A DNA stretch of 64,000 nt from Ferruginibacter sp. (GTDB lineage: Bacteria > Bacteroidota > Bacteroidia > Chitinophagales > Chitinophagaceae): positions 1 through 64,000 of the forward strand of contig JANYGZ010000080.1 in the NCBI GenBank assembly GCA_025362235.1, given 5' to 3'. The notes under the pieces are model-generated. The model had not been told where the DNA came from. It did no database searches and saw only the letters and a list, made by a program, of their open reading frames with translations. The position numbers and the translations under genes are program-made. Positions 6,820-54,545 of the stretch are shown one piece after another; the stretch's first letter is position 1; each line of letters opens with the position of its first letter.

Positions 6820-7368
6820 TTATTCAATGATTCTTTCGGAAACTTTTATGGCAGGGTTTCCTTTGTAAACGCGATAAGGTTCAAGGTTTTTTGTAGCCAC
6901 TGAACCAACGGATAAAACAGCATGTGTACCACAGCTAATTCCAGGGCACACAATTGCAAAAGCACCAATCCATACACCGTCTTCAAGGATGATAGGCGCT
7001 GTCATTAAATCAAAACTTATTTTTTTATAATTATGATTTCCTGTTAATAGCAAAGCACCCTGCGAAATGCAGACGGAATTACCTATTGTAACTTCTACAA
7101 GATTATCTATCCATACTTTTTCGCCAATCCAGCTATACTCGCCAATAACAAGTTTCCAAGGGAACTTAATATTAACCGAAGGTTTTATAACAACCCCCCT
7201 ACCTACCCTTGCACCAAATATGCGAAGAAAAAAAACCCTGATTCCTGTACCGGGAAGAAATGAATTTTTTAGAATCAGCACATTTGTAAAATACCATAAT
7301 ACCTGTTTAAGTTTAGAAGCTCCGATTACGATGGAAGTTTTATATAACGCAATATTTACCTGTTTCAT
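6820..7368 (-). CDS. WcaF-like left-handed beta-helix acetyltransferase
   Basis: Hexapeptide repeats; GARVGRGVVIKPSVNIKFPWKLVIGEYSWIGEKVWIDNL, GNHNY, WIGAFAIVCPGISCGTHAVLSVGSVATKNLEPYRVYKGNPA. Confidence 0.85.
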   Translation of the reverse strand: MKQVNIALYKTSIVIGASKLKQVLWYFTNVLILKNSFLPGTGIRVFFLRIFGARVGRGVVIKPSVNIKFPWKLVIGEYSWIGEKVWIDNLVEVTIGNSVCISQGALLLTGNHNYKKISFDLMTAPIILEDGVWIGAFAIVCPGISCGTHAVLSVGSVATKNLEPYRVYKGNPAIKVSERIIE

Positions 7369-8519
7369 GAAAATAATTGATGGTAAGGTTTTATTAAGGA
7401 AGGGTTATTTATAAAATTATGAGCATACTGCCAGGCGGCATTGGCAAACACATTAAACTCCTGCTGGTTCCACGCAGTGGCTTTTTCAATAGCATTGATA
7501 AATGCTACAGGGACATCAAGGGGTAAATCCCAACCCACATTATCATTTGTCAAATTTAACCACGGGGTTTGGTCACTAATTAATACAGGCCTGCCTGCCA
7601 GGAAAGATTCAAAAATAGAATGGCCAAAATTTTCGCCGGTTGTAGGAAGTATAAAAAGGTGATTTTCCTGCATCAGCTTTGTTAACTCCCAATTATTTTT
7701 TGCACCTAAATAATTAACAGATATATTTTTAGGCAGATCCTCTATTTTATTTTTGCATTCATCCCAGTAAAGCATATTTTCTTGTGGGCCAACAATTGTA
7801 AAGTTTACCTGTCCCTTAATTTTTTCCAGCAACTTCAAAATAAACAAGAGATTTTTAATGGGTACAATTCGTGCTATAAATATACAATTGATTTTACACG
7901 GCTCTTTATGCAACATTGTAAAAGCCGGTTGATTTAGGTTGGGCAGGTTATTAGCAACCTGGATATTACTGTTTGGGAAAAAATGATTGATGGTTATTTT
8001 TTCCCGTTCATTTGTTGCATGAAATTTTACATGTTGCATAATATTCATTTTTTTGTATAACATCAGCATTGGCTTTTTTTTATACCATTTTAATGAAAGT
8101 GCACTATCATACAAATTGCCCCTTGGACATATAACTACGGAAGCACTTATTTTTTTTTTGTATTTTAACCACAAAGGGTAAATAATAAAATGCGGCGAAA
8201 AGAATAAGTTGAGGTAAATAAAATCAGGGGCAATTATGCTAATTTCATTTGCTATTTGTTTAAAAGAAATGGATTGCTTATTGACGTAATATATTTTTAT
8301 TCCCAATTGTTTATCCTCGATCCAACTATTTGCTTCAACACCAAAATAAGGCTGCGTTTCCCCATGATCCCTGTCGGTTGTTAGTACATGAATATCGTAG
8401 TAATCTTTTAATGCAAGGGCAATATTTAAACATGACTGTATGGGACCTCCTGCTTTATATCCAGGTGTAAACCATTCTATTAAGATCATTAATTTTTTAC
8501 GCTCGCTCATATTGGCCAC
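7365..8519 (-). CDS. Glycosyltransferase family 4 (XrtY-associated XYAG1-like)
   Basis: EWFTPGYKAGGPIQSCLNIA N-terminus and C-terminal ESFLAGRPVLISDQTPW; overlaps the exosortase gene. Confidence 0.8.
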   Translation of the reverse strand: MANMSERKKLMILIEWFTPGYKAGGPIQSCLNIALALKDYYDIHVLTTDRDHGETQPYFGVEANSWIEDKQLGIKIYYVNKQSISFKQIANEISIIAPDFIYLNLFFSPHFIIYPLWLKYKKKISASVVICPRGNLYDSALSLKWYKKKPMLMLYKKMNIMQHVKFHATNEREKITINHFFPNSNIQVANNLPNLNQPAFTMLHKEPCKINCIFIARIVPIKNLLFILKLLEKIKGQVNFTIVGPQENMLYWDECKNKIEDLPKNISVNYLGAKNNWELTKLMQENHLFILPTTGENFGHSIFESFLAGRPVLISDQTPWLNLTNDNVGWDLPLDVPVAFINAIEKATAWNQQEFNVFANAAWQYAHNFINNPSLIKPYHQLFS

Positions 8520-9054
8520 TCATTTCCCGTTTACCCGCTCTGTCAAAAAAATAAATCATTATAAAAATACAGCCATAGGCAGCAATATTAAACCAGGTAT
8601 GATGATCTAACCCTAGTGGCATAGACCAGTGTTTATTAATAGCAATTAATAAAAAAGAAATGCGCAGTACATTAATAATCCAGATCAAAAACAACCCACT
8701 AAAAATCCATTTTGTCTTTTTCATCCAGCTGCCTGCATTGGCAATAATAAAAGCTGCCCAAAAACTTAATACGCCATAACCCAGACAATCAAATCCTATA
8801 TGAACTCCCCTCCCACTCTGTACACGTAAAGTATAAATTTCCCAAACATAGGTTTTATATCCTGCTATAAAAAGAACCACTCTTGCTCCATACAATAACG
8901 ATGACCTTAACCAAGATACATAATTGAAATAATGATCGAAAAATGGAATGTAATAACCGCCTGGAGCAGTGAGGCCAATAAAAGCTATGGTACCAAAATA
9001 TAACAAACAAAAAATACCAATAAACTTAAATAAATATTTTAGGAAGGGTTTCAT
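8497..9054 (-). CDS. Exosortase family protein (XrtY-like)
   Basis: Multi-TM protein with the exosortase Cys/Arg/His pattern: FDCLGYGVLSFW, INVLRISFLLIAINKHW, GLDHHTWFNIAAYGCIF. Neighbours a Wzy-like polymerase and a KAGGP glycosyltransferase. Confidence 0.8.
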   Translation of the reverse strand: MKPFLKYLFKFIGIFCLLYFGTIAFIGLTAPGGYYIPFFDHYFNYVSWLRSSLLYGARVVLFIAGYKTYVWEIYTLRVQSGRGVHIGFDCLGYGVLSFWAAFIIANAGSWMKKTKWIFSGLFLIWIINVLRISFLLIAINKHWSMPLGLDHHTWFNIAAYGCIFIMIYFFDRAGKREMSGQYERA

Positions 9055-9122: not shown

Positions 9123-11588
9123 TTAAAGCAATATAAAATTTTGAACAAAGCTGCCCCCTGATGTTATTACTTTTATGGAATACATACCAGGGGGCTGATG
9201 GCTAAGATCCAGCGCTTGTGTGGAATACAAACTTGCCCCCTCCTTTTTCAATACAATTTCGCCGATCGAATTAGAAACTATAAAACTTGTTCGGCCAATA
9301 TAACCATTCATGGAAATAAATATTTTACCATTTGACGGATTTGGATAAATAGTGAAAGATTTACTTGTATTGTCTTGGGATTTTATGGTTTTTATATCTG
9401 AGTAGCATATACTACCTGATTTTGCAACCACCCCTAGCCTGTATTTATATTCAATACCAGGCTGTATATTATCTGTCAATTCGTATAAAGAATCCGCAGC
9501 TATAGGTATGGTACTGATTATTTTAAAATTGCCATTTCCCGTTGCTCTTTGTACAACATACCTGTTAATATTATTTTGCTCAGTAATATTCCATTTTAGT
9601 TTTACCTGGCGGTTATTAATCGAATCCAATCCAAACGTAGCATTCACTTTTATAGAGCTTTGCGAGCAAGGATTTCTACAAGACTTTACTGATAATTCTT
9701 TATTTGTTCTGATTAGTTCTGCGGCTTCCTCATAAGTTGGCCTTTTTAAAAAACAGGATATAGCATCTGTCATGCCGGCCTGTAAACCTGCCGCCATATT
9801 CCCTTCCTTTGTATCAGCCAAATTATAATCACCATTTTCGGGATCTTTAAAAATTGCTTTTAAACCCCTTGGGTCATTTCTAAGATCAAAAAACAAACTA
9901 TGTTGATCCTGGCCGGATTGTTTTTTCCAATCGTCGAAATCGTCAATAATATAAGATCCATTATTTGTAGAAGGGTTGGTAACCGACCATTGAATGTTTT
10001 TACCTCTTAACAATACATATACATTATTATCCCAGCTGTCTTTTGATGTGGCTATACCATCAGTGGTATTGGTAGCAGCGGCTCTTAAAAACCCAGAAGG
10101 GCTTACATCACAAATAAAAATATTGCCAGAAGCAGTTATTTTATTGATAGCACCACCCGTACCTGAAACAAAGGAGCCTATTGTAGCATTTGGGTTATTG
10201 TTATTATTGCTGATATATATAATTGAATGGTGCAGGTTTATTGTTGTTTTATTCTGAGTAATGATCCCCGAAGCAAAACCAGTTTGCTTTGTTTTAATAA
10301 AAACATTTTCAATTGCAGCATTGATGGCATTATTTGCATCATTAAAGGCAATACCAAACGTTACATCTTTAAAAGAGGAATTACTGATTGTAACATGACC
10401 GGCATTTCCATAGTGATAGCCGGAATAAAAGCCATCTGCATAAATATTATTCAGCAGTACAGTATCGTTATTAGAAGTATACATAAATGGCCCAGCTGAT
10501 AAGCTATCAGCAAAAGCAACAACATTATCCATTTCTACAGCACCATAATTTGTTCCATAACTTGTATGGGCATATACAGGTGTTGGAATATCAAGAAATA
10601 TAGAATTTGTAACGTAGCAGTGCCTGTTTAATCCTTCCACATCATAAAAAACAACCGCAAATGCATTGGTATTTTTTGCGCCGGGTAAAAACAATGAATG
10701 ATTGATTGTTCCACTTCGCACTACTAAGTGATGGATGCCTGCCCCCGGTCCAAAAATAACTTTATTATAATAAGAATCAGCGCCACCTGGCAGCATACCA
10801 TTACCGGCACCAAAACCTCTTACCCATAAATTTTCGAAACGGTTATTTGCCTGGTAGGTACTGTTTACAGCCCAATCCTTCACTGTTACTTCGTAGCGGT
10901 ATTTTTTATTATCATTGGGCGAGCTTCCATCACTGGTATGAATGTATACGGGCATTGGATTTTGATTGGTAACAGGTGTGTAAAAAGAACCCGGTGTATT
11001 TTCTATATCCGTTTGGTTACTAAGAAATTTTAATAACCTTCTTGCTGTAAATGGTGCTGTTTTTTCCAGTTCCCTGTCAATTTCAAATACACTGATAAAA
11101 CTATATTGGCCAATAGTATTAATGCCATACCCAACAAACCCATTATAAAAAATGAGCTGATTAAAGGTATATATTTTACCAGCTTCTTTTAGCCAGCCTG
11201 CTCCAAATTCTTTTGTACCATTTAAAATAGCAAATTCATTCCCAGGCAAATTATTATCATAAGTATTTATTTCTATCGGATAAGAAGTAACAAGGCCTTC
11301 CTCAAAAATATTACCTTCTTTTAATCCAAGCTTTACTTTTTTGTTCACAAGCGAAAAAGTTTCAAGGGCAGGGGAAATGGCGGTAATTGTTTTTTTGGGG
11401 AATTGATAGGATGTTCCTGGAAAACTATCATTTCCATTATTACTCACATAAAAGTCAAATTTTTCCTGCGCCAGGCAGATAGTACAAAGATGAATTGCAA
11501 ATAAAAACATCACGCACCTGCTTAAGCGATTGGTTAACAGGCAAACTGCGCCGCTAAAAAAACAATATAGTTGGAAAAAATTATTCAC
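9123..11588 (-). CDS. Secreted right-handed beta-helix protein with FN3-like region and T9SS type A C-terminal sorting domain
   Basis: N-terminal hydrophobic signal; DFYVSNNGNDSFPGTSYQFPKKTI (DUF1565/beta-helix-type start); C-terminal SFTIYPNPSNGKIFISMNG...PPGMYSIKVITSGGSFVQNFILL. Confidence 0.8.
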   Translation of the reverse strand: MNNFFQLYCFFSGAVCLLTNRLSRCVMFLFAIHLCTICLAQEKFDFYVSNNGNDSFPGTSYQFPKKTITAISPALETFSLVNKKVKLGLKEGNIFEEGLVTSYPIEINTYDNNLPGNEFAILNGTKEFGAGWLKEAGKIYTFNQLIFYNGFVGYGINTIGQYSFISVFEIDRELEKTAPFTARRLLKFLSNQTDIENTPGSFYTPVTNQNPMPVYIHTSDGSSPNDNKKYRYEVTVKDWAVNSTYQANNRFENLWVRGFGAGNGMLPGGADSYYNKVIFGPGAGIHHLVVRSGTINHSLFLPGAKNTNAFAVVFYDVEGLNRHCYVTNSIFLDIPTPVYAHTSYGTNYGAVEMDNVVAFADSLSAGPFMYTSNNDTVLLNNIYADGFYSGYHYGNAGHVTISNSSFKDVTFGIAFNDANNAINAAIENVFIKTKQTGFASGIITQNKTTINLHHSIIYISNNNNNPNATIGSFVSGTGGAINKITASGNIFICDVSPSGFLRAAATNTTDGIATSKDSWDNNVYVLLRGKNIQWSVTNPSTNNGSYIIDDFDDWKKQSGQDQHSLFFDLRNDPRGLKAIFKDPENGDYNLADTKEGNMAAGLQAGMTDAISCFLKRPTYEEAAELIRTNKELSVKSCRNPCSQSSIKVNATFGLDSINNRQVKLKWNITEQNNINRYVVQRATGNGNFKIISTIPIAADSLYELTDNIQPGIEYKYRLGVVAKSGSICYSDIKTIKSQDNTSKSFTIYPNPSNGKIFISMNGYIGRTSFIVSNSIGEIVLKKEGASLYSTQALDLSHQPPGMYSIKVITSGGSFVQNFILL

Positions 11589-35008: not shown

Positions 35009-35692
35009 CTAAAGTGATGAAAAATTGGAAATCTTTAAAAACTGTTTACTATTTAACCTCATTGGTTTTGTTGATTCAACAATAACTACTTTTTCATCTT
35101 CGAGGTTTTTTGTAACCAGGGCATTAGCTCCTATAAAACAATTCTTCCCAATCGTTATGCTATGCCCAAGCGTTGCATTTACAGCCATAAAAGTGTTTGC
35201 GCCCAAATGTACATTACCAGAAATATTACAACAGGATGTTAGCCAGCAATTGTCTTCAATTACAGAATGGTGCCCCACCATTGTGCCACTCCAAACAAAC
35301 ACATTATTTTGTATGCTGACGCAGGGATGGATGATTGCTGGTGGCATAATGAAACAATTCCATCCTACACTCACATTGGCAGGTACATTTGCCAACGGGC
35401 TGATGATGGATACCAGCCTATATCCTTTGGCAATCGCCTCCCTGCACCTGGCTTCCCTTAGCCTGTTAAGATCATGGTAACCCACCGCAATAAACATATC
35501 GTGAGATTCGGGCGGAAACTTTTGACCTGCCTGATCAAATGATACTACAGGCAATCCCTGGAAATGTGTTGCTGTTTTATATTGTTCATCCACGCAAAAA
35601 CCAACAACATTAAAACCACATTCATTGACTGCATAATAGAAAACAACTTCTGCTATTTTACCAATACCAAATATTACAATATCTTTTTTCAT
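35009..35692 (-). CDS. NeuD/PglD-like sugar O/N-acetyltransferase
   Basis: DIVIFGIGKIAEVVFYYA (Rossmann-like) then hexapeptide repeats NNVFVWSGTMVGHHSVIEDNCWLTSCCNISGNVHLGANTFMAVNATLGHSITIGKNCFIGANALVTKN. Confidence 0.85.
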   Translation of the reverse strand: MKKDIVIFGIGKIAEVVFYYAVNECGFNVVGFCVDEQYKTATHFQGLPVVSFDQAGQKFPPESHDMFIAVGYHDLNRLREARCREAIAKGYRLVSIISPLANVPANVSVGWNCFIMPPAIIHPCVSIQNNVFVWSGTMVGHHSVIEDNCWLTSCCNISGNVHLGANTFMAVNATLGHSITIGKNCFIGANALVTKNLEDEKVVIVESTKPMRLNSKQFLKISNFSSL

Positions 35693-37236
35693 ACTTGTTG
35701 AACTAATTGTTTACGGTCAATTTTACCATTGCTGTTTTTTGGCAGTGAAGATAATATAACCACTGCTTTGGGTACCATGTAAGAGGGTAGTAAATTTTTT
35801 ATTTCATCAAGGATCGCCCTGGTATCTGTTATAGTGCCGGCAACACTTACAAATGCTTTTATCTGGCCAAGTTCAGGGGTAATCTTTTCATAAATAACAG
35901 CTGCCTCATGTATATAAGGCAATGTGCTGAATGCAACTTCTACCTCCTCCAGTTCAATACGGTAACCCATATGCTTTACCTGGTTATCTGTTCTGCCTTT
36001 AAAATGCAAACGCCCATCTGCTCCTTTTTCGACTATATCACCGGTTTTATACATCAGTTGCATAGACAGGCTCTTTTTATTTTGAACAAATGATTTAGCT
36101 GTTCTTTCCACATCATTATAATAACCTAATCCTACACAGGGCCCAATGAGTGTCAATTCTCCAAAGTCGATATTATCATCCGTTAAAGGCAGTATCTCGT
36201 AACTGAAGTTAGCCGCTATATATCCCAATGGGGCCAATTCATTCATGTTGTCAAAGTCCAGTGCCGTGACAATGTAAGAAGAACAAATGCAGGTGCATTC
36301 TGTAGGGCCATATACATTGTATAAAGTAACCCTGTGGCCAAACAGGTCAAATAATTGTTTCAGTTTATTTTTAGGAAATCCTTCTCCGCCGAATGATATC
36401 CTGCGAATGGAATAAAAATCATCTTTTGAAAGTGCTTTTGTAGTAAGCAGGTATACCAGTAACGAGGGTACGGAAAACCAGAGTGTACACTGGGATTGAT
36501 TGATTGCCTTTACCAGCTGTTGGGCATTTTTGACCAGCTCATGTGCGAGCGGAACAAGTGTTGCCCCATTGTAAATTGATATGTAAAAATCAAACACTGA
36601 ATTATCAAAATATACAGGGTTGGCATTTGTTAAGATATCTTCTTCTGTAACATTAAATGTTTCCTTTCCCCATTGTATAAAATTCAATACGTTGCTATGG
36701 CTCATCACTGCACCTTTCGGAAAGCCAGTGGAACCTGATGTAAACATAATATATGCGGGGTTATTGCCATCAATGCCAGTGGTAACTGTCACATTTTGGT
36801 CACTGAAGTTTTCTAATGTTATTTTAAATGTTTCATCCTGTAACCCGATACACTCAATCATTGAAAAACATTGACCGATATTTTCTTTTATAGCAGGATC
36901 GATAAGATCAAAAAAAAATATACGGGGAACACAGGTATCAATTATTTTTTGCAGTCTTGGCCATGGGCTGGTAATATCAAGATTGGTGTAGATAGCGCCA
37001 ACCTTCAAACAGGCTATCATCAAAGAAAATGCAAAGTGAGATTTATCATTAAATATTGCTACAACATTTCCTTTCTGAATTCCCTTGCTCAATAAAAAGC
37101 CTGCTATTTTATTTGACAGTTTATTAATCTCGGCATACGAATAAGCATCTCCTGACGGATATTGCAACGCTATCCTTGCCTGGTGCCTGGCTGCAACTTC
37201 ATAAAATTTTATTCCTAAATTATATTGATATTCCAT
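35689..37236 (-). CDS. AMP-binding adenylation enzyme (amino-acid/acyl activating, DltA-like)
   Basis: YIMFTSGSTGFPKGAVMSHSN, NVYGPTECTC, YKTGDIVEKGADGRLHFKGRTDNQVKHMGYRIELEEVE, NSNGKIDRKQL. Confidence 0.93.
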   Translation of the reverse strand: MEYQYNLGIKFYEVAARHQARIALQYPSGDAYSYAEINKLSNKIAGFLLSKGIQKGNVVAIFNDKSHFAFSLMIACLKVGAIYTNLDITSPWPRLQKIIDTCVPRIFFFDLIDPAIKENIGQCFSMIECIGLQDETFKITLENFSDQNVTVTTGIDGNNPAYIMFTSGSTGFPKGAVMSHSNVLNFIQWGKETFNVTEEDILTNANPVYFDNSVFDFYISIYNGATLVPLAHELVKNAQQLVKAINQSQCTLWFSVPSLLVYLLTTKALSKDDFYSIRRISFGGEGFPKNKLKQLFDLFGHRVTLYNVYGPTECTCICSSYIVTALDFDNMNELAPLGYIAANFSYEILPLTDDNIDFGELTLIGPCVGLGYYNDVERTAKSFVQNKKSLSMQLMYKTGDIVEKGADGRLHFKGRTDNQVKHMGYRIELEEVEVAFSTLPYIHEAAVIYEKITPELGQIKAFVSVAGTITDTRAILDEIKNLLPSYMVPKAVVILSSLPKNSNGKIDRKQLVQQV

Positions 37237-42983: not shown

Positions 42984-44102
42984 CTATCCAATTATCTTTC
43001 GCAAATTTTGTTTATACACAGGGTAACTGAATTTATTCATTACGTGTTGCAGGTTAGGGATAAAGGCCGGTTTATTTTCAAGAACCGTAATAATCGCATT
43101 ATTAATTTGTTCTGTATCATCGGGGTTGATGAGTATACCTAAATTACCATTATCTAATGCATCTGCAGAGCCATCTACATTTCCCGCTATTACTGGTTTT
43201 CCATAAAACATGGCTTCAATAAATACAATGCCAAAACCTTCTTTTTTACTTGGCATAATGTACAGATCGGCAAGAGCATAATGTGCTGCCAGCTCTTCAT
43301 CAGCAATAAACCCGGTTAAAATAATATGATCCTGTAAACCAAGGCGGCTAATAATATCATCCACCCTTTTTTTTTCTATTGCGTCATATTTGCCTGCTAC
43401 CAGGTATCTGATATCCGTGTATTTCGCTCTTAGAGAATGTACGGCTTGAATTACTTTGTCGTACCCCTTATACCCTTCGTTGCTGGCCAGGCGGGTAAGC
43501 GTAAATAAAACTTTATCATTGGCATCAATACCATAACGCATAAGTAAATTTTCATCCTTTGGTTGTTGTTGCGCCGGAGGCAAAAAAGGGTCAAGACAAT
43601 TGTTGAGTATAGTAAATTTTTCTTCCGGAAGATTGTACAATTGCATCATCTTCTTTTTTGTAAAATCGCTTACCGGTAAAATCTGGTCGCATTTGGCCAG
43701 CATCATTTTCTTCCACCTGGGGAAATTGCGCCATACCTCAATACCATGAGCAATTAAAAATAATTTTGTTTTTGGAGAAAATAATTTGATGGCGAAGCCT
43801 ACTGTTAACAAATTAACGTGGCTCAAAATTACCATCCTGCTATTACTGCCTTGTTTAATAGCGGCAAGCAAAAACTTAAGCCGTTGCTTACCAAAACCTA
43901 AAAAAACCTGTGCCGGAAAATAGATTGGATTTACTTCATCAGTTTCATCATACAAAGAAAAAATTTTTACTTTTTTATTCACTTGCTCCCCCGACAATTC
44001 GTATAAAGCCTTACCGGCCGCCATGCATACTTTTTCAATTCCGCCTGTTTCAGAAAACAACCTTAGCGTTAAAAATAAAGTATCGGTTTTAGGCGGCTTC
44101 AT
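42984..44102 (-). CDS. Glycosyltransferase family 4
   Basis: RLFSETGGIEKVCMAAGKALY; LFTLTRLASNEGYKGYDKVIQAV; PSKKEGFGIVFIEAMFYGKPVIAGNVDG. Confidence 0.95.
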   Translation of the reverse strand: MKPPKTDTLFLTLRLFSETGGIEKVCMAAGKALYELSGEQVNKKVKIFSLYDETDEVNPIYFPAQVFLGFGKQRLKFLLAAIKQGSNSRMVILSHVNLLTVGFAIKLFSPKTKLFLIAHGIEVWRNFPRWKKMMLAKCDQILPVSDFTKKKMMQLYNLPEEKFTILNNCLDPFLPPAQQQPKDENLLMRYGIDANDKVLFTLTRLASNEGYKGYDKVIQAVHSLRAKYTDIRYLVAGKYDAIEKKRVDDIISRLGLQDHIILTGFIADEELAAHYALADLYIMPSKKEGFGIVFIEAMFYGKPVIAGNVDGSADALDNGNLGILINPDDTEQINNAIITVLENKPAFIPNLQHVMNKFSYPVYKQNLRKIIG

Positions 44103-45873
44103 GATTTTCCATTAGCAACACAGTTAAAAATTGCGCCCAATGCAGCTTTCCATTAACAAATTGTTTATGATAATCAGCATTTTTTATTCCTGCATGGCGA
44201 CGGGCATATTGATCGTTTATCAGCCAGTCTTTAAATGGAAATGAAAAGCCCATTTTTGGCCTGTTCCATACCTGCTCAGGTATTGATTGTTTAAAACTAT
44301 CTACCAGCAATTGCTTATTAACCGTTCCTGAATATTTTACTGTACTGCATATTTGAAGGGAAAGTTTTAGAAATTCCTTGTCCAAAAAAGGTACCCTTAT
44401 TTCAACCCCATGTGCCATGCTCATTGTATCTGCATCTCTTAATAACTGGTTCTGCATAAATAAATTTGACTCTATCCAGCTGACCTGGTTTTTTGCAGTT
44501 AAATTATTTATATCCGGCAGCTGAGGGTGTTTCTCCAAAAGATTCCATACTTCCGTTTCACTTGCATCTAAATATTTGGCTATCTCATTAGGTATAAACT
44601 GGCCACGTAAAAAAAGATATATGCCCGCAGCACCAGGAATACTTAAGTAACAAAGACGACGTAATTTTCTTGAACTGCTGTGGCTGGCATACCTCAATAT
44701 AGAGGGGGACATTTTTTGCAACAATAATGCCGGGTGTATTCTTTTAAAAGAAGGGTAACCGCCATAGAGTTCGTCACCTCCAACCCCAGATAGAACCGCT
44801 TTTAAACCATGCTCTTTTGCATACCTGCTTATAAACCAGGTATTGATACCATCACAGCTTGGCAGGTCCATTGCTTTAATAATGTCCTCAAAGTGGGCAT
44901 GAAAAATTTCTTCTGTTAATAATTGCTGATATTGGTTGCCTTGTAAACCCCTTTGTACAAGATCCTGGTATTTTTTTTCAGAATAATGATCATCATCAAA
45001 AAAAAGCGAGATGGTATTTATGCCGGGTTGTTGTTGTTCAGCAAGCAGTGCAATGATGCTCGAATCAAGTCCTCCACTTAAAAATACGCCAATAGGCGCA
45101 TCAGACAACAAGTGACGTTTAACTGATTTTTTCAAGGTTGCCTGTACAAGGTCAATCGCTTCTTTTCTATTATTTATTAGCTCAATATAACTATAATGCG
45201 TAAACGCTTGTTGCTTAACTGCGCCACTTTCAATATTGTATTGAATCCAGTATCCTTTTTTTAGTGGCTGCACCTCTTTTAAAGTAGTAATAGGCTCCGG
45301 CAAATGTCCGTAAGCCATCAGGTAGACCTGCCAATTAGGATGCTCCGTTTGCAGGTAGGGGATATTTTTAAATGCCCTTACTTCTGATGCAAATGCCAAC
45401 CCTTCTACGGTATGTGCAAAATACAAAGGTTTTATACCGGCACCGTCTCTTACAAGGTAAATATTACCGGTATTATTATCCAAAAGTGCAAAAGCAAACA
45501 TACCATTAAATTTTTCAAAAGCTTCAACGCCCCAGGTTGCAAATGCCGCAAGAATTACTTCCGTATCACTGGCGGAGGAAAAACAACAACCTTTTTTTTT
45601 GAGTATCTCTTTTAACTCCAAATAATTATATAATTCGCCATTATAACTAATTACATATGCCCCATTATGGTATACCATTGGCTGATGGCCAGCCATTGAA
45701 AGATCTATTAAAGAAAGCCTTCGGTGGCCTAATACCAAGTGATGATTAGCGCTGGTATATATCCCTTCATCATCAGGCCCCCCATGTCTCAATATATTGC
45801 ACATTTCAACAACAGTAGCATGTATTGCATCCAGCGGCATTGAACGATTAATAAGCCCGGCAATTCTACACAA
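44089..45873 (-). CDS. asnB: Asparagine synthase (glutamine-hydrolyzing)
   Basis: MCRIAGLINRS (Cys2 nucleophile), RHGGPDDEG, GHRRLSLIDLS, SYNGELYNY, GVFLSGGLDSS, VLSGVGGDELYGGYP. Confidence 0.95.
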   Translation of the reverse strand: MCRIAGLINRSMPLDAIHATVVEMCNILRHGGPDDEGIYTSANHHLVLGHRRLSLIDLSMAGHQPMVYHNGAYVISYNGELYNYLELKEILKKKGCCFSSASDTEVILAAFATWGVEAFEKFNGMFAFALLDNNTGNIYLVRDGAGIKPLYFAHTVEGLAFASEVRAFKNIPYLQTEHPNWQVYLMAYGHLPEPITTLKEVQPLKKGYWIQYNIESGAVKQQAFTHYSYIELINNRKEAIDLVQATLKKSVKRHLLSDAPIGVFLSGGLDSSIIALLAEQQQPGINTISLFFDDDHYSEKKYQDLVQRGLQGNQYQQLLTEEIFHAHFEDIIKAMDLPSCDGINTWFISRYAKEHGLKAVLSGVGGDELYGGYPSFKRIHPALLLQKMSPSILRYASHSSSRKLRRLCYLSIPGAAGIYLFLRGQFIPNEIAKYLDASETEVWNLLEKHPQLPDINNLTAKNQVSWIESNLFMQNQLLRDADTMSMAHGVEIRVPFLDKEFLKLSLQICSTVKYSGTVNKQLLVDSFKQSIPEQVWNRPKMGFSFPFKDWLINDQYARRHAGIKNADYHKQFVNGKLHWAQFLTVLLMENHEAA

Positions 45874-45939: not shown

Positions 45940-46446
45940 TTAATTACCTAAAAGTTCTAAATTTTTTTTATCAAATTGTGCACTCAGTTGTAAACCCATA
46001 CTCTCAATTCTTACCCTTGCTTTATTGCCAATCAACTCAACCAATATGCCATGGTAATTCATCAATACCCCTGTTTTTATTTTAACGGTGCTGTTTACAC
46101 GCAATGACAAGTCACTAACCTCAACATCTGTAAACTCGTTTAAAAATTTACGAATTGTCAATATTTCTTCTTCCCGTATAGGTGCCGGTTTACCAAGCCA
46201 ATGCACATAATTCAATACGCCGTTAATTTTTTTCACTTCCCATTTTTCCTCAGCACTAACCTTTACAAAAACATACCCTTTAAAAACAGGTTCCAGCACC
46301 ACTTTCTTACGATCGCTCCATTGCCTGGTAACCTTATTAATGGGACAGTAATTTTCAAAGCCCCACTGATCGAGTAACTGGGCTACTTTTTTTTCCCACC
46401 TTGGTTTGGTATACAGGGCATACCATTGTGCATTATTTTCTGTCAT
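45940..46446 (-). CDS. UpxY-like NusG-family transcription antiterminator
   Basis: WYALYTKPRWEKKVAQLLDQWGFENYCPINKVTRQWSDRKKVVLEPVFKGYVFVKV plus KOW-like C-terminus; likely start at MTENNAQ (46446). Confidence 0.9.
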   Translation of the reverse strand: MTENNAQWYALYTKPRWEKKVAQLLDQWGFENYCPINKVTRQWSDRKKVVLEPVFKGYVFVKVSAEEKWEVKKINGVLNYVHWLGKPAPIREEEILTIRKFLNEFTDVEVSDLSLRVNSTVKIKTGVLMNYHGILVELIGNKARVRIESMGLQLSAQFDKKNLELLGN

Positions 46447-46730
46447 TGCATAGCTTCGCTTATCCTCAGTTACAATATTTTTAACTGGGCTTTTAATAAA
46501 TAATTTCTTCTTCAATATACCTTCCCAAAGCAAATACCCATTATAAAAACAACAGGTTTTTACAATGAATTTACAAAAAAGTTACCCGATAATTCGCATT
46601 GATGGCTTAAGCAATAAAAGAGGCGGTTAAAATGGTACAGATTTATATGGATGTAAAAATACTGATTCAGCTGCGCTAATTTCATTGTACAATTTCTCAC
46701 CCTGATCAGCATTTTTTATAAGTACCAAAC

Positions 46731-49136
46731 TTACCGGCTCGAAATAATCCGCTTAACCTTCCGCCACCATTGTTTTATCCCAAAAAATTTCGACTTATTG
46801 TCATCTATTGCATACCCATATCCATAGCCATATCCGTAACCATATCCGTAACCATATCCATAACCGTAGCTATTATTAAAATTACCAATAGAAATGCCCC
46901 TCTTTTTTAATCCATTAAAAACAATACACATATTATTGAATTTCTTCGTTTCATTTAGTTCATTGATCATCCTCAAAAATACTTTGGGGGTTCGGTCGTG
47001 CCTGATAACATATAGTGTTACATCACAATAAACATTTAACAACAGGGCATCCGTTACAGGGCCAATGGGGGCTGTATCAATGATTACATAATCAAAGTCT
47101 TGTTTAACTTTTTGTATAAGGGCCTTAAAACCAGGCTTACCAATCAGTTCCGTGGGATTTGGTGGAATTATACCCGCAGGAATAATATACAAATTTGGTA
47201 TGGATGTTTCCCTTAATATGTCTTCAAATTTGGCTTTACCTACAATATAGTTAGAGATGCCCGGGTCCCTTGCCACTTCCATCAGCTTACTCAGTTTTGG
47301 CTTGCGAAGATCCATTTCCAAAAGAGCAACTTTTTTTCCGGTTAAAGTAAGGCTAATCGCAAAGTTAATGGCTATAAAACTTTTGCCCTCACTGGAAATA
47401 CTGGAGGTTACCAGCAGGGTTTTATTTTCTTCATTAAAACCTATGTAGCCAAGGTTGGTTCTTAAGGCCCTGAATTGTTCTGCTATAACTGTTCTTTTAC
47501 CTTCAAGAATTACAATAGGACTTTTAGTAGCAGCCTGTACAATTTCGCCCACAAATGGCACAGAAGTTTTTCCCTCAATTTCATCCCTAAATAGTACTTT
47601 ACTCTTAAACTGCTCCTTCATTAAAACCAAAAAAACAGCAGAAAGCAACCCAACAATAAACCCCGCTAAATAATAATTTTTGGGAACCGGGCTAACCGGG
47701 CCGTAAGAATTTGGTTTTTCAATAACCCTGAGATCAGAAGAAGTAGATGCAGATGAAAGTGCAGTCTCTTCTTTTTTTTGCAGCAAATAGGAATAGATGC
47801 TATTTTTAACAGCCTGTTGACGGCTGATCTCCAATAAACCTCTTTCTTTTTGGGGTATATGGCTAAGCAGGTTATTATTTGAAGTGGTTTTGTTGATTAT
47901 ATCGTTTTTAATAGTCAGAAGACCGGCCCTTATATTATTTAGATTTTCATCGATATCAATTTTTAATCGCCTTACTTTTTCATTGGCCAATAATACAGGT
48001 TCACTTTGCTCTCCGGAAATGCTGATTGCTTTATCCAGTTCAAATTCAGCCGAATATAATTCTTTTAATAAATCACTTAAAATGGGGTCTGTAATTAGAT
48101 TTAGCGATGGAACGGTACCGTTTTTTTTCCCTTTTTCCTGTATATATTTTTTTACTTCATTCAGCACATCTAACTGAAGGTCAATGTCGCCTTTACGCTT
48201 GTCAAGATCTTTTACTTTGTCAAGAAAAAGATCAGCTTCTGCCCCTACCCCTACTCCATACAATGATTCCTTTGATTTGTATAATACTATATTTCTTTCA
48301 ACACTGTCAAGCTGGTAAATTACCAAACTAAGCCTGTTTTCAATAAATTTAAGTGTTTTAGAAGCTATCAGGTTTTTATCTTCAATGCCTTCCGAATTGT
48401 AAACTTCAAATAATTTAGTTAATATAGCTTCCCCTTTTAAGGGTTCCGGCGTTTGCAAATTTACATCCAGCACAGTAGAAACATTCGATAACGGTGCGGC
48501 TCTTATGCTTGCTGATATTGCTGCAGATACTGCTGCTACCGGGCTTATTATAACATAATAATTTTTACCCACAACATTTTGATTGTAGTTATTATTTATA
48601 AAAAGGCGATAAGCGGTATTACCCAATACAACTGAAGAGTCAAAAGGTATAGATTCGTTATTAATGCCTACGATTCTGCTATTCCAGTTAATTGTAAAAT
48701 AGTATTTATTATAACCAATAACACTATCTTCATTTATTGCTACAAAACGTAGAGGGGAGTTTTGTCCGTACAATTCTTCCTCTCTTACTTTTCCCTGGTT
48801 ATATACTGTTGCATATAAATTAAGATCTTTTACTACCTCTTGTACTATACTGGATGATTTAAGAACCAATATTTCATTATCAACAATCTTTTTTTCACTA
48901 AAAATATTTAGAGCATCCAATACTTTGGAGTCGCCGGTTCCTTTATTGGGGTCTTTTAATAGCACTTTGGCACCTGCAACATAAATGGGTACCTGTGATC
49001 TTAAATAGATAAATGATACACATAGTGCAATAGGAATGGTAAGTGCAAACAGTGGCCAAAAGGGAAGGTATTTTTGTAATAATTGTACAAAAATATTTGT
49101 CTCCGGCTTTTCCTGATATAAAGGTTGTTCGTTCAT
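46731..49136 (-). CDS. wzc: Polysaccharide biosynthesis tyrosine autokinase (Wzc-like)
   Basis: Wzz-like N-terminus; LLVTSSISSEGKSFIAINFAISLTLTGKKVALLEMDLRKPKL Walker motifs; YVIIDTAPIGPVTDALL; Tyr-rich C-terminus. Confidence 0.95.
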   Translation of the reverse strand: MNEQPLYQEKPETNIFVQLLQKYLPFWPLFALTIPIALCVSFIYLRSQVPIYVAGAKVLLKDPNKGTGDSKVLDALNIFSEKKIVDNEILVLKSSSIVQEVVKDLNLYATVYNQGKVREEELYGQNSPLRFVAINEDSVIGYNKYYFTINWNSRIVGINNESIPFDSSVVLGNTAYRLFINNNYNQNVVGKNYYVIISPVAAVSAAISASIRAAPLSNVSTVLDVNLQTPEPLKGEAILTKLFEVYNSEGIEDKNLIASKTLKFIENRLSLVIYQLDSVERNIVLYKSKESLYGVGVGAEADLFLDKVKDLDKRKGDIDLQLDVLNEVKKYIQEKGKKNGTVPSLNLITDPILSDLLKELYSAEFELDKAISISGEQSEPVLLANEKVRRLKIDIDENLNNIRAGLLTIKNDIINKTTSNNNLLSHIPQKERGLLEISRQQAVKNSIYSYLLQKKEETALSSASTSSDLRVIEKPNSYGPVSPVPKNYYLAGFIVGLLSAVFLVLMKEQFKSKVLFRDEIEGKTSVPFVGEIVQAATKSPIVILEGKRTVIAEQFRALRTNLGYIGFNEENKTLLVTSSISSEGKSFIAINFAISLTLTGKKVALLEMDLRKPKLSKLMEVARDPGISNYIVGKAKFEDILRETSIPNLYIIPAGIIPPNPTELIGKPGFKALIQKVKQDFDYVIIDTAPIGPVTDALLLNVYCDVTLYVIRHDRTPKVFLRMINELNETKKFNNMCIVFNGLKKRGISIGNFNNSYGYGYGYGYGYGYGYGYGYAIDDNKSKFFGIKQWWRKVKRIISSR
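46812..46868 (-). repeat. In-frame (Tyr-Gly) tandem array in Wzc tail
   Basis: 19 codons encoding Y-(GY)9 (10 Tyr, 9 Gly), partly from repeats of 12-nt GGTTACGGATAT. Confidence 0.95.
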
Positions 49137-49157: not shown

Positions 49158-49982
49158 TTATCTAAGCCTAATCAAACTCAAAATAATAACTATAATAGAT
49201 GCTACAGATAATACATTGGAAAGTACCTGCTGATTCCTTTTTTCGCTTTGTTCAGTATACATTTTTTCAACATAGGGGTTTATAACAAGGATATCTTTGG
49301 GCTGCAAATAATAAAAGGGCGATGAAAAAATGGACTGATCTTCGAGGTTAATATGTTTAAACTCCCTGGAGCCAGGCATTTCCCTAATAACCAGCATGTT
49401 TTTATAAGTACCTTTTTCAGTTACATTACTGCTTAACGCAATAACATCTATCAGTGAAATTTTTTCGTTGGGCATATTTAACACCTGTGATTTGCCGACA
49501 TCGCCCATTACAGTAACAAAATGATTGGCAAAACTAACTGTTACAATAGGGTCTTTTAAATAAGGGAGTAAATCCTTTTCAAGTTTTATTTTTAACTCGG
49601 CCCTCGTCATACCTTGAACATATACTTTACCCAATTTGTGTAAATAGATGTTTCCGTCTACACTAACTAGATAACCACCTTCTACTCCACCACTAGTTGT
49701 AGTAAGCTCTTTTCCCATTGCAGAATTAAAAAACTGGTCTTCAACAGGATTCAAGCTGGAGATGGCCAGGCTTAACAGGTCATTTTTTTGAATTTTTAAT
49801 TCTGTGTCAATATTTGTATTACTCTTTATAACAGTATCCCTGGTAATATCTTTAAAAGGATAGGTAGGTTTTGATATAGCACAGGAAGTAAAAAGAGCGG
49901 CAGATAAGAAAATAATAACCGAAAATTGTATAACAAACAAAAAGTATCCCCTTAAAGGCAGATAAGTATAGGGTATCACCAT
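49158..49982 (-). CDS. wza: Polysaccharide export outer membrane lipoprotein (Wza-like, SLBB)
   Basis: Lipoprotein signal (LFTSCAISK); GGYLVSVDGNIYLHKLGKVYVQGMTRAELKIKLEKDLLPYLKDPIVTVSFANHFVTVMGDVGK. Confidence 0.93.
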   Translation of the reverse strand: MVIPYTYLPLRGYFLFVIQFSVIIFLSAALFTSCAISKPTYPFKDITRDTVIKSNTNIDTELKIQKNDLLSLAISSLNPVEDQFFNSAMGKELTTTSGGVEGGYLVSVDGNIYLHKLGKVYVQGMTRAELKIKLEKDLLPYLKDPIVTVSFANHFVTVMGDVGKSQVLNMPNEKISLIDVIALSSNVTEKGTYKNMLVIREMPGSREFKHINLEDQSIFSSPFYYLQPKDILVINPYVEKMYTEQSEKRNQQVLSNVLSVASIIVIILSLIRLR

Positions 49983-50174: not shown

Positions 50175-50393
50175 TTATAGTAAATGAGTTGTTCTTTTTT
50201 TTTTATTATCCCTTGCTTTTTTAATACCATAGCCGATACCGGCTGCGAGTAATAAACTTATACCACCATCAATAGGAGCATCGGGATCAACTGCACCATC
50301 ATCAGTAGGTTGAGCCCTGAGACTTCCAGGTAAAACAATTAAAAAAATAAAAAGTGTACTCCACATCAATAGACATTTGCCATATTTAGTCAT
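50175..50393 (-). CDS. Tiny secreted protein with PID-CTERM-like exosortase sorting domain
   Basis: Signal peptide MTKYGKCLLMWSTLFIFLIVLPGSLRA, about 12-residue spacer QPTDDGAVDPDA, then PIDGG-ISLLLAAGIGYGIKKA-RDNKKKR (motif, TM helix, basic tail). Confidence 0.8.
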   Translation of the reverse strand: MTKYGKCLLMWSTLFIFLIVLPGSLRAQPTDDGAVDPDAPIDGGISLLLAAGIGYGIKKARDNKKKRTTHLL

Positions 50394-50633
50394 CTATATA
50401 TAAATTTTACAGGTGTTTAATATTTAATTTGAACTATAAAATTAAGGTTTGTTTTTTATAATATTTTTTCAATATTACGATTGTTATTATTTTATAATTT
50501 ATCGTTCAAAACAATAACGAATTTTTTATACCGAAATTACGTAAAGGAGGCTTAATACATTTTAATTATTTGGTAAAAAAAGTAAATGAATTCCGAAAAC
50601 TTGTGGATAACAATCGCAGAAATAAATCGTTTC

Positions 50634-53600
50634 CTATTTTACCTGTACCAATATCTTTATAGCTCTTTTGGTTTTATCAGGAAAGATCACTTCTAACAGG
50701 TATGATTCATTAGAAGGTGTTTCTATCATAGGCTTTATTGTGGCTATAAGGTTGCCTCCGCCGTGATTGATAGTTTGTGTATGCAATACCTGCCCTATAT
50801 TATTAAGTAACCTTGTTTGGTACTTACCTGCCGGTTGATTGATTAATTGAAGATTGATGTTACCATCTGTTACAGGGTTTGGATAAATATTAATGGTTGC
50901 AGCTCCGTTGATAAATGCGATTTTTACAATGCGGCTAAAAGTTCTATCACCTGATAAGCCAATACTTTTAATACGGTAAAAATTATAACCCAAAAATGGG
51001 TTCACATCCAGCCATTGATATTTAGCAGAACGGGTGGTTCCTATTGCAAGGGTAGAATTTACCCTGGTGAAATATTCCCCATCAACAGATTTTTCTATTT
51101 CATATTTATTAATGTTCAACTCATTTTCTACTTCCCATTCTACCGCAATAGCATTGTTTTGCCTGGTGACTTTAATTGTGCTGAAAGTTACAGGTAATGG
51201 TTGTTCACGATTTTTAAAGACCAATCTAAAGCGGTTAGCCAATGCACTTTCGGCATCTCCATTCACAGAAAAGTTAATATTCGTATTACCCGTCAAATTT
51301 ATCAGCGTGGATAATTTGGTATAACTGTCTTCTAAATATCCTTCCAACCCATTTGCAAAAATATTGGTGGCAAATTGAAATTGGTAATTCCGTTGAGTTG
51401 CATGAGTTAAAAAATAAAAGATGGTATCACTTTCTGTAATAAAAGGCCTCCTTTCAACAGCCAGTTTTTGATTGCTCCTTGTTAAAGAAAATGTTTCATT
51501 TACATTACCAAATTTCAGGGCATCATTTATATCAATATCATTGCTGTATGTATCGCCAAATTCCACCGTGTTACCATCTGCAATGCTGGTGGCACTATCG
51601 TTATGCAGCAGGTGGAGATTAGTTCGTATAAATTCACCTCTGTTACCAAGCTCAGCAACAGGGCGAAAAATAAATGGATTATTAAAGGGGGCTTTATTGC
51701 TTTCCTGAAAAGTGATGGAAGCAGAAGCAGGCAATATTCTTTCAACAAAAAATGCCTGGCTGCTTTGAATATAATTATTCTGCGAAGAACCGCCATACGG
51801 AGCAGTAGGTATAAAAATACCAGGAGTGGCTAAATCTTCCATAGTAACGTAGGCGCCAACCTGGTTAATGTTTGGATCAAATACATAAAAGCGATGCGTA
51901 TAAATGTTATCAGATTTATCAATCAAATTAAAATCTATTGGTGAGGGATAGGGGTTGCCGACAAGGCCATAGGTGTATGGTAAACTAATATTTACAGGCC
52001 CTGTTTGTAACTTGCCGCTACAACTTAAAGTAGTATAATCGCTATTGGCAATATTGGTTAAAATGGGGTTTCTGTCTCCCCTTACAAATAAAAAGTAACC
52101 GGTTCCTTTAGAAGGGGATAATGGCGTATGTGTATTATCTACATTAATAAAATTTGTGCCATCATATTTTTTTAAAGAATAATTATTAGTGGGCGTAATA
52201 TCTAAACCGTTACCTGCTATTTGAGGTCCCGTAATTAAAGTACCGCGGTGATAATTGCCCGGTCCATAAACTGCTCCACCCAACTGCCAGGTATCATAAA
52301 TATCACCTGTTTCATTTAAGGGAGTTGTAACTAAGCGCCATGCCCGATGCGAAACAGGGTTATTATTTGGAAAAAATCTTTCTACATAAAATCTACCAAC
52401 ACCATAATTTATACTTGCAGTGACAGGAATTTCAGCTACTCTTGCTGTATTTGTAGCTGTTGATAGCAGCGTGATATCGCCAAACGTGCAATTTAATTTG
52501 CTGTTATCCAATAGCGTTAGTGTATTAACTATGCCCATATTATTTACTATGTTTATGCCAGTGCTGGTATTATTAATATTGAGATTATAAAAATTAACTG
52601 GTACCGTAATTGTACAAATATAATTCTGCCCATTAAGGGCATTAGCAAAAACAACTGTGCCATTGTTGTGTGCAAAATCGCTGGTTCCTGATTTGGTAAA
52701 ATTGCCCAAAATAGTCAATATACCTGATGGTGCTGTTTTGATACCGGCAATACCGGAAATAACAAAATGCTGATAACTAAGGCCATTAGCATTAGTAATT
52801 GGTTGGTTATTATCTCTTGAATAATTGATGGTGCTGCCGGGCTGGAGCACAATATTTTCAATATTTGAATGTATAGAAGAATTGTTACTGAAGGTAGCCG
52901 TGAACCCATGAAACCCTTCATTATTACCACTGTTAAAAGTTCCTCCACTTTCCACAATTACAGTTTGTGTACCTGCAGGGCCACTAATACCATTATCATT
53001 TATAGTAAAAACTCCACCGTTTTTTATTGTAAACGTTCCAAGATTATTTAGCACAATATTGCTGCTCGAATTATTTACATCCGATCCTGTTACTTCTATA
53101 TCCTGGTATGTTTTTGACCGGATACTTTTGGAACTGCTTCCTGCAAATTCAACAACACCTCCTGTTAAATTATATACTCCGCCCATCATTGGCTGTACAC
53201 CCCCAGTTGACACTATCAATCTTCCTCCATCCATTGTTAAATTAGCATTTGTACTTCCATCACCTACATTATGGCCGGTACAATCCAATACTGCCGTACC
53301 AGTAATTTTCACTGTTCCAACCGGGGCAAAACCATTGCCAGGGTTTTTAATTCCGCTTTCAGAAAATACCAGGTTTTTAAAGTCTGCACGGGCATTAAAA
53401 TTTTGATTGCCCGCCTTGTTAAATTCAATGGTACCGTTGGTTTCCAGTATTATTGGTTCTGCAACTATTGCAGCTCCCACTCCGCTAAAGCCACCGCTAT
53501 TACTTGTTTTTAAAATTCCGCCGCCAGCTATGGTAACACTTGCCGAGGCTCCGTTATTATTTATCCTGCAATTAGTAATATCAAGTGTGCCATTTACCTG

Positions 53601-54545
53601 CAAGTTACCTGCCTGTTTATTGATGTTTTGATTTTCAGCGGGAACTGTAATTTTTACATTTGCCCCTACGGGTACGATAGCTCCGTTGGTAAAACGCAAA
53701 CCACTACTTATGGTATTAATGGTTAAAGACCCATCTAACACAGATGTTGAATTTGGCAATGTTATAAATCCATCTGTTTGGTTTATTACACTTGCTCCTG
53801 TTAATCCGCCACGAAAAATTTTTATACCACTACCGGCAATGTTGAACGGAGCATTTACTTCAAGGATACAATTAAGGATATTGTTGAAAGATGTTCCAAA
53901 AGCTGCAATTGGTGCAGCGCTTATTCTTAAAATAGGGATGTCGGTTATTAAAGGAGTTTTGAAATAATCCTGCGCACCTGTTTTATTAAAAATATAATTG
54001 ACTATATTCCACTCAAATACAGATTTATCCTGGTAAATAAATTTAGAATTTATGTTTAAGTAATTATCTCCAATGGCATTAGCCGCCGCTACACTACCAG
54101 CTGCATTTGCAATAACTTTTCCGCCTGTTTTAATTAATGCAGTACCTGAACCTATCGGAGCAGATAGTGTGGTAAAATTCAATAATAAAATACCTCCATT
54201 TTCCACCACGAAATTATCGCCAACACCACCAATTGTATAAGCAGCCGTTAAAGTTAATTGCAGGGTTCCACCGCTTTGAATAGTTGTATTTTTTAAAGAT
54301 ACCCCTCCTGTACTTACTGTAACGGTGTGCAGGTTTTGAATACGGATACTTGTTGCTGTTGACGTAGGTACAAGGGTTGCAGCAAAATAACTAATATCAT
54401 CATGAGAAGATTGCCAACTTGCTAATGCTGACCAATCGCCGGTTGCTACAGATTTAAAGTAATCTGTATTTAAGCTTGGTTGAGTAAAACAAATTATTGG
54501 CAATAATAAAAATGAAATTGAAAGAACCGCATAATTTTTTTTCAT
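50634..54545 (-). CDS. Large secreted beta-rich protein with T9SS type A C-terminal sorting domain
   Basis: Signal peptide MKKNYAVLSISFLLLPIICFTQ; many repeated G/N/T-rich beta-helix-like segments; C-terminal AATINIYPNPVTDGNINLQLINQPAGKYQTRLLNNIGQVLHTQTI... Confidence 0.85.
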   Translation of the reverse strand: MKKNYAVLSISFLLLPIICFTQPSLNTDYFKSVATGDWSALASWQSSHDDISYFAATLVPTSTATSIRIQNLHTVTVSTGGVSLKNTTIQSGGTLQLTLTAAYTIGGVGDNFVVENGGILLLNFTTLSAPIGSGTALIKTGGKVIANAAGSVAAANAIGDNYLNINSKFIYQDKSVFEWNIVNYIFNKTGAQDYFKTPLITDIPILRISAAPIAAFGTSFNNILNCILEVNAPFNIAGSGIKIFRGGLTGASVINQTDGFITLPNSTSVLDGSLTINTISSGLRFTNGAIVPVGANVKITVPAENQNINKQAGNLQVNGTLDITNCRINNNGASASVTIAGGGILKTSNSGGFSGVGAAIVAEPIILETNGTIEFNKAGNQNFNARADFKNLVFSESGIKNPGNGFAPVGTVKITGTAVLDCTGHNVGDGSTNANLTMDGGRLIVSTGGVQPMMGGVYNLTGGVVEFAGSSSKSIRSKTYQDIEVTGSDVNNSSSNIVLNNLGTFTIKNGGVFTINDNGISGPAGTQTVIVESGGTFNSGNNEGFHGFTATFSNNSSIHSNIENIVLQPGSTINYSRDNNQPITNANGLSYQHFVISGIAGIKTAPSGILTILGNFTKSGTSDFAHNNGTVVFANALNGQNYICTITVPVNFYNLNINNTSTGINIVNNMGIVNTLTLLDNSKLNCTFGDITLLSTATNTARVAEIPVTASINYGVGRFYVERFFPNNNPVSHRAWRLVTTPLNETGDIYDTWQLGGAVYGPGNYHRGTLITGPQIAGNGLDITPTNNYSLKKYDGTNFINVDNTHTPLSPSKGTGYFLFVRGDRNPILTNIANSDYTTLSCSGKLQTGPVNISLPYTYGLVGNPYPSPIDFNLIDKSDNIYTHRFYVFDPNINQVGAYVTMEDLATPGIFIPTAPYGGSSQNNYIQSSQAFFVERILPASASITFQESNKAPFNNPFIFRPVAELGNRGEFIRTNLHLLHNDSATSIADGNTVEFGDTYSNDIDINDALKFGNVNETFSLTRSNQKLAVERRPFITESDTIFYFLTHATQRNYQFQFATNIFANGLEGYLEDSYTKLSTLINLTGNTNINFSVNGDAESALANRFRLVFKNREQPLPVTFSTIKVTRQNNAIAVEWEVENELNINKYEIEKSVDGEYFTRVNSTLAIGTTRSAKYQWLDVNPFLGYNFYRIKSIGLSGDRTFSRIVKIAFINGAATINIYPNPVTDGNINLQLINQPAGKYQTRLLNNIGQVLHTQTINHGGGNLIATIKPMIETPSNESYLLEVIFPDKTKRAIKILVQVK

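Follow-up and report, generated by a model that had tools for sequence, protein, structure and literature searches.

PID-CTERM mini-proteins encoded behind type IX secretion cargo genes in Ferruginibacter and other Bacteroidota: candidate helper or anchor peptides

What could a secreted protein do if, once matured, it consisted of little more than a short peptide? This question is raised by a 72-aa open reading frame in the 64,000-nucleotide stretch of Ferruginibacter DNA analysed here (the window). A first-pass annotation had read it as an almost cargo-less exosortase substrate and had proposed that its product is an anchor or acceptor peptide, a signal, or a regulator of EPS assembly. We asked what kind of gene it is, which enzyme would process its product and which gene it accompanies in other genomes.

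The mini-gene and its locus

The ORF lies on the minus strand and its translation is MTKYGKCLLMWSTLFIFLIVLPGSLRAQPTDDGAVDPDAPIDGGISLLLAAGIGYGIKKARDNKKKRTTHLL; the opposite (plus) strand of the same interval contains 7 stops. By sequence inspection, the signal peptide (residues 1-27) has a hydrophobic core followed by LRA, with Gln at +1. The mature stretch QPTDDGAVDPDA-PIDGG, in which the spacer QPTDDGAVDPDA holds a single Thr, precedes a TM helix and a basic tail. Every element of the anatomy first described is thus present, and PIDGG, TM helix and basic tail together form the architecture of an exosortase substrate. The assignment to the PID-CTERM family also stands, with 48.8 bits against model NF046080 (E=4.2e-13; cut-off 26). 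A genome-wide search for PID-CTERM paralogs returned no second copy: in 4.33 Mb, the ORF alone exceeds the cut-off (runner-up 12.3 bits).

Lack of conservation in homologous loci had been named as a result that would speak against the gene; we find orthologues in five Ferruginibacter MAGs. Compared with the orthologue at L158, the window ORF has dN 0.18 and dS 1.43, and compared with the remaining Ferruginibacter orthologues dN 0.29-0.39 and dS 1.2-2.0. The resulting dN/dS ratios among these relatives (about 0.13-0.3) are approximate, as dS is near saturation. Nonetheless, dN is well below dS in each pair with the window ORF, which identifies a protein-coding gene under purifying selection. 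Together with the NF046080 match, this rules out a spurious ORF at 50175-50393. In Ferruginibacter relatives, an A/T-rich element resembling AAACAAwCsTTAwTTTTATA recurs some 40-60 bp ahead of the PID start codon (window 50394-50633, minus strand; L158, L159, L162) and is possibly a promoter or regulator site.

The mini-gene heads an EPS locus, as had been claimed. Read 5' to 3' on the minus strand, the 1303-aa T9SS cargo gene is followed after 241 bp by the PID ORF and, about 193 bp further on, by the genes for Wza, Wzc and UpxY (Table 1). The cargo gene upstream had gone unnoticed in the first-pass annotation. Beyond UpxY follow, in the same direction, the amidotransferase, Wzm/Wzt and many glycosyltransferases; the far end of the locus holds the second T9SS protein (821 aa), the exosortase and a glycosyltransferase. 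The cluster also contains an amino-acid adenylation/DltA-like AMP ligase (35689-37236; TIGR01733 302 bits, just under cut-off), adjoined by a NeuD-type acyltransferase, and the ligase could make an aminoacyl sugar.

Table 1. Features of the window around the PID-CTERM gene and at the far end of the EPS locus
Feature	Position	Strand	Evidence
Secreted T9SS cargo, 1303 aa	50634..54545	-	C-terminal type A sorting domain, TIGR04183: 24.2 bits on last 110 aa, 23.9 bits genome-wide (cut-off 23, marginal); 17.2 bits in whole-protein scan (under cut-off)
PID-CTERM mini-protein, 72 aa	50175..50393	-	NF046080 match
Wza-like polysaccharide export protein	49158..49982	-	PF02563 51.3 bits, cut-off 28
Wzc-like chain-length/tyrosine autokinase	46731..49136	-	TIGR01007 155.9 bits, cut-off 108
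UpxY-family antiterminator	45940..46533	-	NF033644 133.5 bits, cut-off 100
Asparagine-synthase-type amidotransferase of the EPS cluster	44089..45873	-	TIGR01536 390.5 bits; TIGR03108 (XrtA/PEP-CTERM amidotransferase) 343 bits, under the model's cut-off
Second T9SS cargo, 821 aa, neighbouring the exosortase gene	9123..11588	-	TIGR04183 31.5 bits, cut-off 23
Exosortase, XrtY-like	8497..9054	-	NF046083 124 bits, short of cut-off 160; TIGR04178 36.8 bits, cut-off 23
Glycosyltransferase overlapping the exosortase gene	7365..8519	-	Nearest XrtY-associated GT XYAG1; NF046085 107 bits, cut-off 400 not reached

PID-CTERM proteins and their exosortase

Nearly all of about 200 PID-CTERM proteins are mini-proteins; of the roughly 155 matches listed for the phylum, only one falls in an open frame longer than 200 codons. 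A signal peptide is predicted for 151 members. Counted through P-I-D, their mature parts have a median length of 15 residues (quartiles 14 and 19) and are 55% Pro+Asp+Gly. The tiny product claimed for the window ORF is thereby upheld. Its near lack of cargo, which had been taken as a peculiarity of this ORF, turns out to be the rule across the family, and we discard the idea of an oddity confined to the window locus. The single long exception, L134 (G304:C1:2167132), is a 995-aa PID-tailed frame. We reject it as a secreted cargo, since it encodes a multi-TM membrane protein of about 965 aa ending in VPIDGE, a TM segment and basic residues; presumably it is the single target of another exosortase, of the XrtN type. 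In another member, L019 (G041:C1:4120520), a lipobox (LLFSC) replaces the ordinary signal peptide.

Across the family, the helix is far better conserved than the spacer. The spacers are acidic in Chitinophagaceae and Pro- or Gly-rich elsewhere. The acidic, Ser/Thr-poor spacer singled out in the first-pass annotation is therefore real, but it is a lineage flavour. N-terminal Gln is predicted in 125/151 mature peptides, a count somewhat inflated by a cleavage rule that gave a bonus to Gln at +1, and Lys is absent from 139/151. The window peptide likewise has an N-terminal Gln and is without Lys. Bacteroidota convert N-terminal Gln of this sort to pyroglutamate (PMC5837995).

An exosortase in the same locus is likewise supported: one is encoded 41 kb from the PID ORF, at the opposite end of the EPS locus. 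It carries the TIGR04178 superfamily signature, and its residues C90, R131 and H151 are invariant across 24 exosortases. Since it stays under the cut-off of the XrtY model NF046083, which no genome in our sample of the order exceeds, we call it XrtY-like only. A PF09721 search of the window genome did not detect it; the NCBIfam models do, so we dismissed the absence of an exosortase from this genome. No other gene of this genome matches the XrtY family, and the product of this one is presumed to be the processing enzyme for the PID ORF.

This pairing of substrate and enzyme is consistent with their distribution. Among 149 genomes of the order, PID-CTERM is found in 31 and an XrtY-family match (E<=1e-5) in 46; the match is present in 30/31 PID-positive compared to 16/118 PID-negative genomes (Fisher 1e-18). 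In the window's family, the PID-positive and exosortase-positive sets are identical, and no PID-negative genome has the exosortase. The PID gene often abuts the exosortase gene; in G058 and G126 the two are 24 kb apart on one contig.

NCBIfam has curated families for PID-CTERM, XrtX and XrtY (NF046080, NF046081, NF046083), and the window ORF thus belongs to a known kind. It shares with that system a sorting domain above cut-off, an exosortase with invariant Cys, Arg and His, the co-distribution and the short protein; the difference lies in the sub-threshold XrtY score of its exosortase. A comparable system is PEP-CTERM/EpsH (XrtA) of EPS-producing Gram-negatives, the substrates of which are mostly full-size secreted proteins. 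According to the mechanism proposed for exosortases, the enzyme cuts close to the motif and joins the new C-terminus to an acceptor compound. The likeness to the PEP-CTERM system comprises motif, TM helix and basic tail, an exosortase inside an EPS cluster, and relatives of the amidotransferase and the AMP ligase. Here, however, the substrate is almost only a tail, and the large protein is a separate one carried by the T9SS.

Genes upstream of PID-CTERM genes

We found that 43 of 49 PID loci have an upstream gene on the same strand, and that 32 of these 43 genes encode at least 700 aa, compared to 15% of background genes. The C-termini of the large upstream genes resemble T9SS C-terminal domains (CTDs). 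Of 66 neighbours upstream of PID genes on the same strand, 45 match TIGR04183; the model is missing among the families listed for 71 downstream neighbours, which bounds its presence there at no more than 2/71. With a profile built from another T9SS protein as seed, the picture is much the same (48/66 upstream versus 1/71 downstream). In a set of named genomes, T9SS cargo pairing is found at 58/75 PID loci and in 31/46 assemblies; these genomes were found by sequence similarity and a few are shared with the first set, so the two are not fully independent. In multi-copy genomes, 36 of 38 PID genes are paired with T9SS cargo. By mechanical gene calls, gaps from cargo to PID gene are mostly 10-250 bp.

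The most conserved neighbour of PID genes is thus a large T9SS type A gene directly upstream, rather than EPS genes. About a dozen of some 150 PID genes precede Wza, and most are directly behind a T9SS cargo gene. The cargo-PID-Wza-Wzc order of the window recurs at five Ferruginibacter loci (L158-L162) and at two others in Chitinophagaceae (L182 and L202). Close relatives come from MAGs of Ferruginibacter and other Chitinophagaceae, which fits a position of the window in or near that genus. Cargo, PID and exosortase genes form three-gene runs in G009, G065 and G041 (loci L142, L145 and L068). On this evidence, the PID mini-gene is very probably partnered with the T9SS cargo.

Paralogous cassettes within one genome illustrate the pairing. 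The cargo CTD is 92-100% shared in most pairs and 52-72% in some, and the PID proteins are 53-100% identical and often almost the same. Cargo homology is limited to the C-terminal part, and the N-termini do not match. For example, the two tandem cargo genes of L118 differ in their N-terminal parts but agree in all of the last 90 residues, and their PID proteins are identical.

Other arrangements exist. In G058, of the same genus, the gene upstream of PID encodes 502 aa and is not a T9SS cargo. In G007, G102 and G117 the exosortase is the sole neighbour of the PID gene, with no T9SS neighbour. In eight f7 genomes (L006, L010, L011, L012, L017, L021, L023, L026), the PID gene follows immediately after a gene for a methylated-DNA-cysteine methyltransferase (ogt); several of these ogt-associated PID genes encode poly-Pro spacers. 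A Chitinophagaceae-like cargo-PID pair (L172) sits on a contig filed under a Verrucomicrobia MAG and is probably mis-binned.

Pairing is not general among cargo. The window genome (G000) has 38 type A CTDs versus one PID gene, so most cargo manage without PID. A single PID gene might act for more than one cargo in this genome, where the unpaired CTDs L263, L267 and L270 resemble that of the window cargo (L274; YPNPV...NH..G type). Among paired CTDs, a subtype with HxGG is common. A unique signature of paired cargo is nevertheless rejected, as other subtypes occur among paired CTDs and HxGG members also occur unpaired. An RGDR-motif module lies 360-490 residues before the C-terminus in the window cargo (50634-54545) and in 17 further paired cargo (L158-L237), and RGDR is in none of 281 other genes of at least 300 aa at these loci.

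We also considered absence of PorU as the driver of PID. SprA is present in the window genome (2316 bits) and in G058, G126, G108 and G120, and the PorU model NF033707 is under cut-off in all five. The window genome has one large C25 peptidase, and the C25 peptidases found in G000, G058 and G126 are all large (frames of about 1620-1720 aa). PorU scores under cut-off in several genomes of the family, but these low scores do not track PID presence, and we dropped PorU absence as the driver.

What the mature peptide may do

Two precedents suggest a role for such a partner. Cargo of T9SS type B have a SprF/PorP-like holding partner encoded next door (PMC9143113, PMC12618676). As in PID loci, a cargo gene there adjoins the gene of a dedicated partner and the adjacency is conserved; PID-paired cargo, in contrast, have a type A CTD, and instead of an outer-membrane barrel their partner is a mini-protein predicted to be cut by an exosortase. 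Other T9SS cargo are anchored to A-LPS through an amide bond to an amino-acid-bearing linking sugar (PMC7468200), and glycan attachment of type A cargo at the surface is likely the context here as well. The linking sugar, however, offers an amine, whereas the PID peptide is mostly predicted to be blocked at its N-terminus and has no Lys. The N-terminal Gln, expected as pyroglutamate, and the missing Lys make a PorU-type amide bond to the peptide unlikely, and its amine is disfavoured as a PorU acceptor.

Based on the cargo-PID gene order and these precedents, we propose that the PID peptide is processed by the exosortase, is dedicated to the T9SS cargo encoded upstream and serves its retention at the surface or on polysaccharide (probability of roughly 55% for the explanation as a whole). 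Signal peptidase I would take off residues 1-27, and the XrtY-like exosortase would cut at or near PIDGG, leaving a Pro/Asp/Gly-rich peptide of about 12-17 residues. The enzyme would pass this peptide on; a plausible acceptor is a glycan or glycolipid of the EPS locus in which the enzyme itself is encoded. There the peptide, as partner of the cargo, may help to hold it at the surface or on polysaccharide, by non-covalent binding or another chemistry. Cleavage, transfer and retention are all predicted from sequence and gene order. Retention or anchoring as the specific role is put forward tentatively, at somewhat less than even odds. That a peptide attached by the exosortase to EPS or glycolipid forms a surface anchor for the adjacent type A cargo, as an alternative to A-LPS attachment, is a speculative extension that we consider doubtful. 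Of the roles first suggested, an anchor or helper is still the most plausible, though one that serves T9SS cargo.

The main rival to surface retention places the function in the inner membrane, where the anchored PID protein would escort the T9SS cargo or hold it in the periplasm before secretion, exosortase cleavage would release PID, and the peptide would have no job at the surface. Cargo-PID adjacency is equally expected in that case, and the much better conservation of the TM part (PIDGG...AAGxGYGxKK) than of the spacer would fit a role within the membrane. A conserved TM part is, however, also what recognition by a single dedicated exosortase would predict, and the spacers are conserved within lineages (for example QPGLPxxPxxAPIDGG); we regard such an escort as unlikely. 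A peptide or mini-protein that tunes Wza/Wzc-dependent EPS export, close to the EPS-assembly role first suggested, would explain why the position before Wza, Wzc and UpxY is kept in Ferruginibacter and relatives, even in G058 without an upstream T9SS cargo, and it fits the placement of the exosortase gene inside EPS clusters. Yet most PID genes are distant from Wza/Wzc, and genomes with up to ten PID genes place them behind different T9SS cargo, not in EPS operons. The position at the head of the locus therefore holds, but EPS export as the primary role is weakened and appears quite improbable.

Two further readings dispense with a cargo partner. PID genes could merely travel in duplicated T9SS cargo cassettes without a functional tie to the cargo, and the paralogous cassettes are indeed recombining repeats, many at contig ends. 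But many families show the pairing although their cargo N-termini are unrelated, the PID gene always lies on the same side of the cargo gene, and PID genes and exosortase are lost together, which makes hitch-hiking very improbable. We give hardly any credence to a pheromone-like signalling peptide matured by signal peptidase and exosortase, a version of the signal first suggested: the sequence is short and lineage-specific and a pyroglutamate N-terminus is expected, but where a genome has several PID genes, each goes with its own, different cargo gene.

Among 5.39 million open-access papers searched, none mentions PID-CTERM and none is relevant to XrtX or XrtY. In the portions available of open-access work that joins exosortases and type IX secretion, we found no description of the PID-T9SS cargo pairing. 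The pairing may already be known to NCBI curators.

What is known of how type A cargo are retained at the surface comes mainly from work on A-LPS of oral pathogens. A one-peptide exosortase substrate behind a T9SS cargo gene would link the question of cargo retention with that of the exosortase acceptor and make both testable: the PID product is short enough to be analysed in full by mass spectrometry, and the cargo-PID pair occurs in environmental strains available in culture, such as Segetibacter koreensis DSM 18137 (locus L180). The presence of PID mini-genes behind genes for large secreted surface proteins across Bacteroidota suggests that they encode a dedicated helper or anchor peptide.
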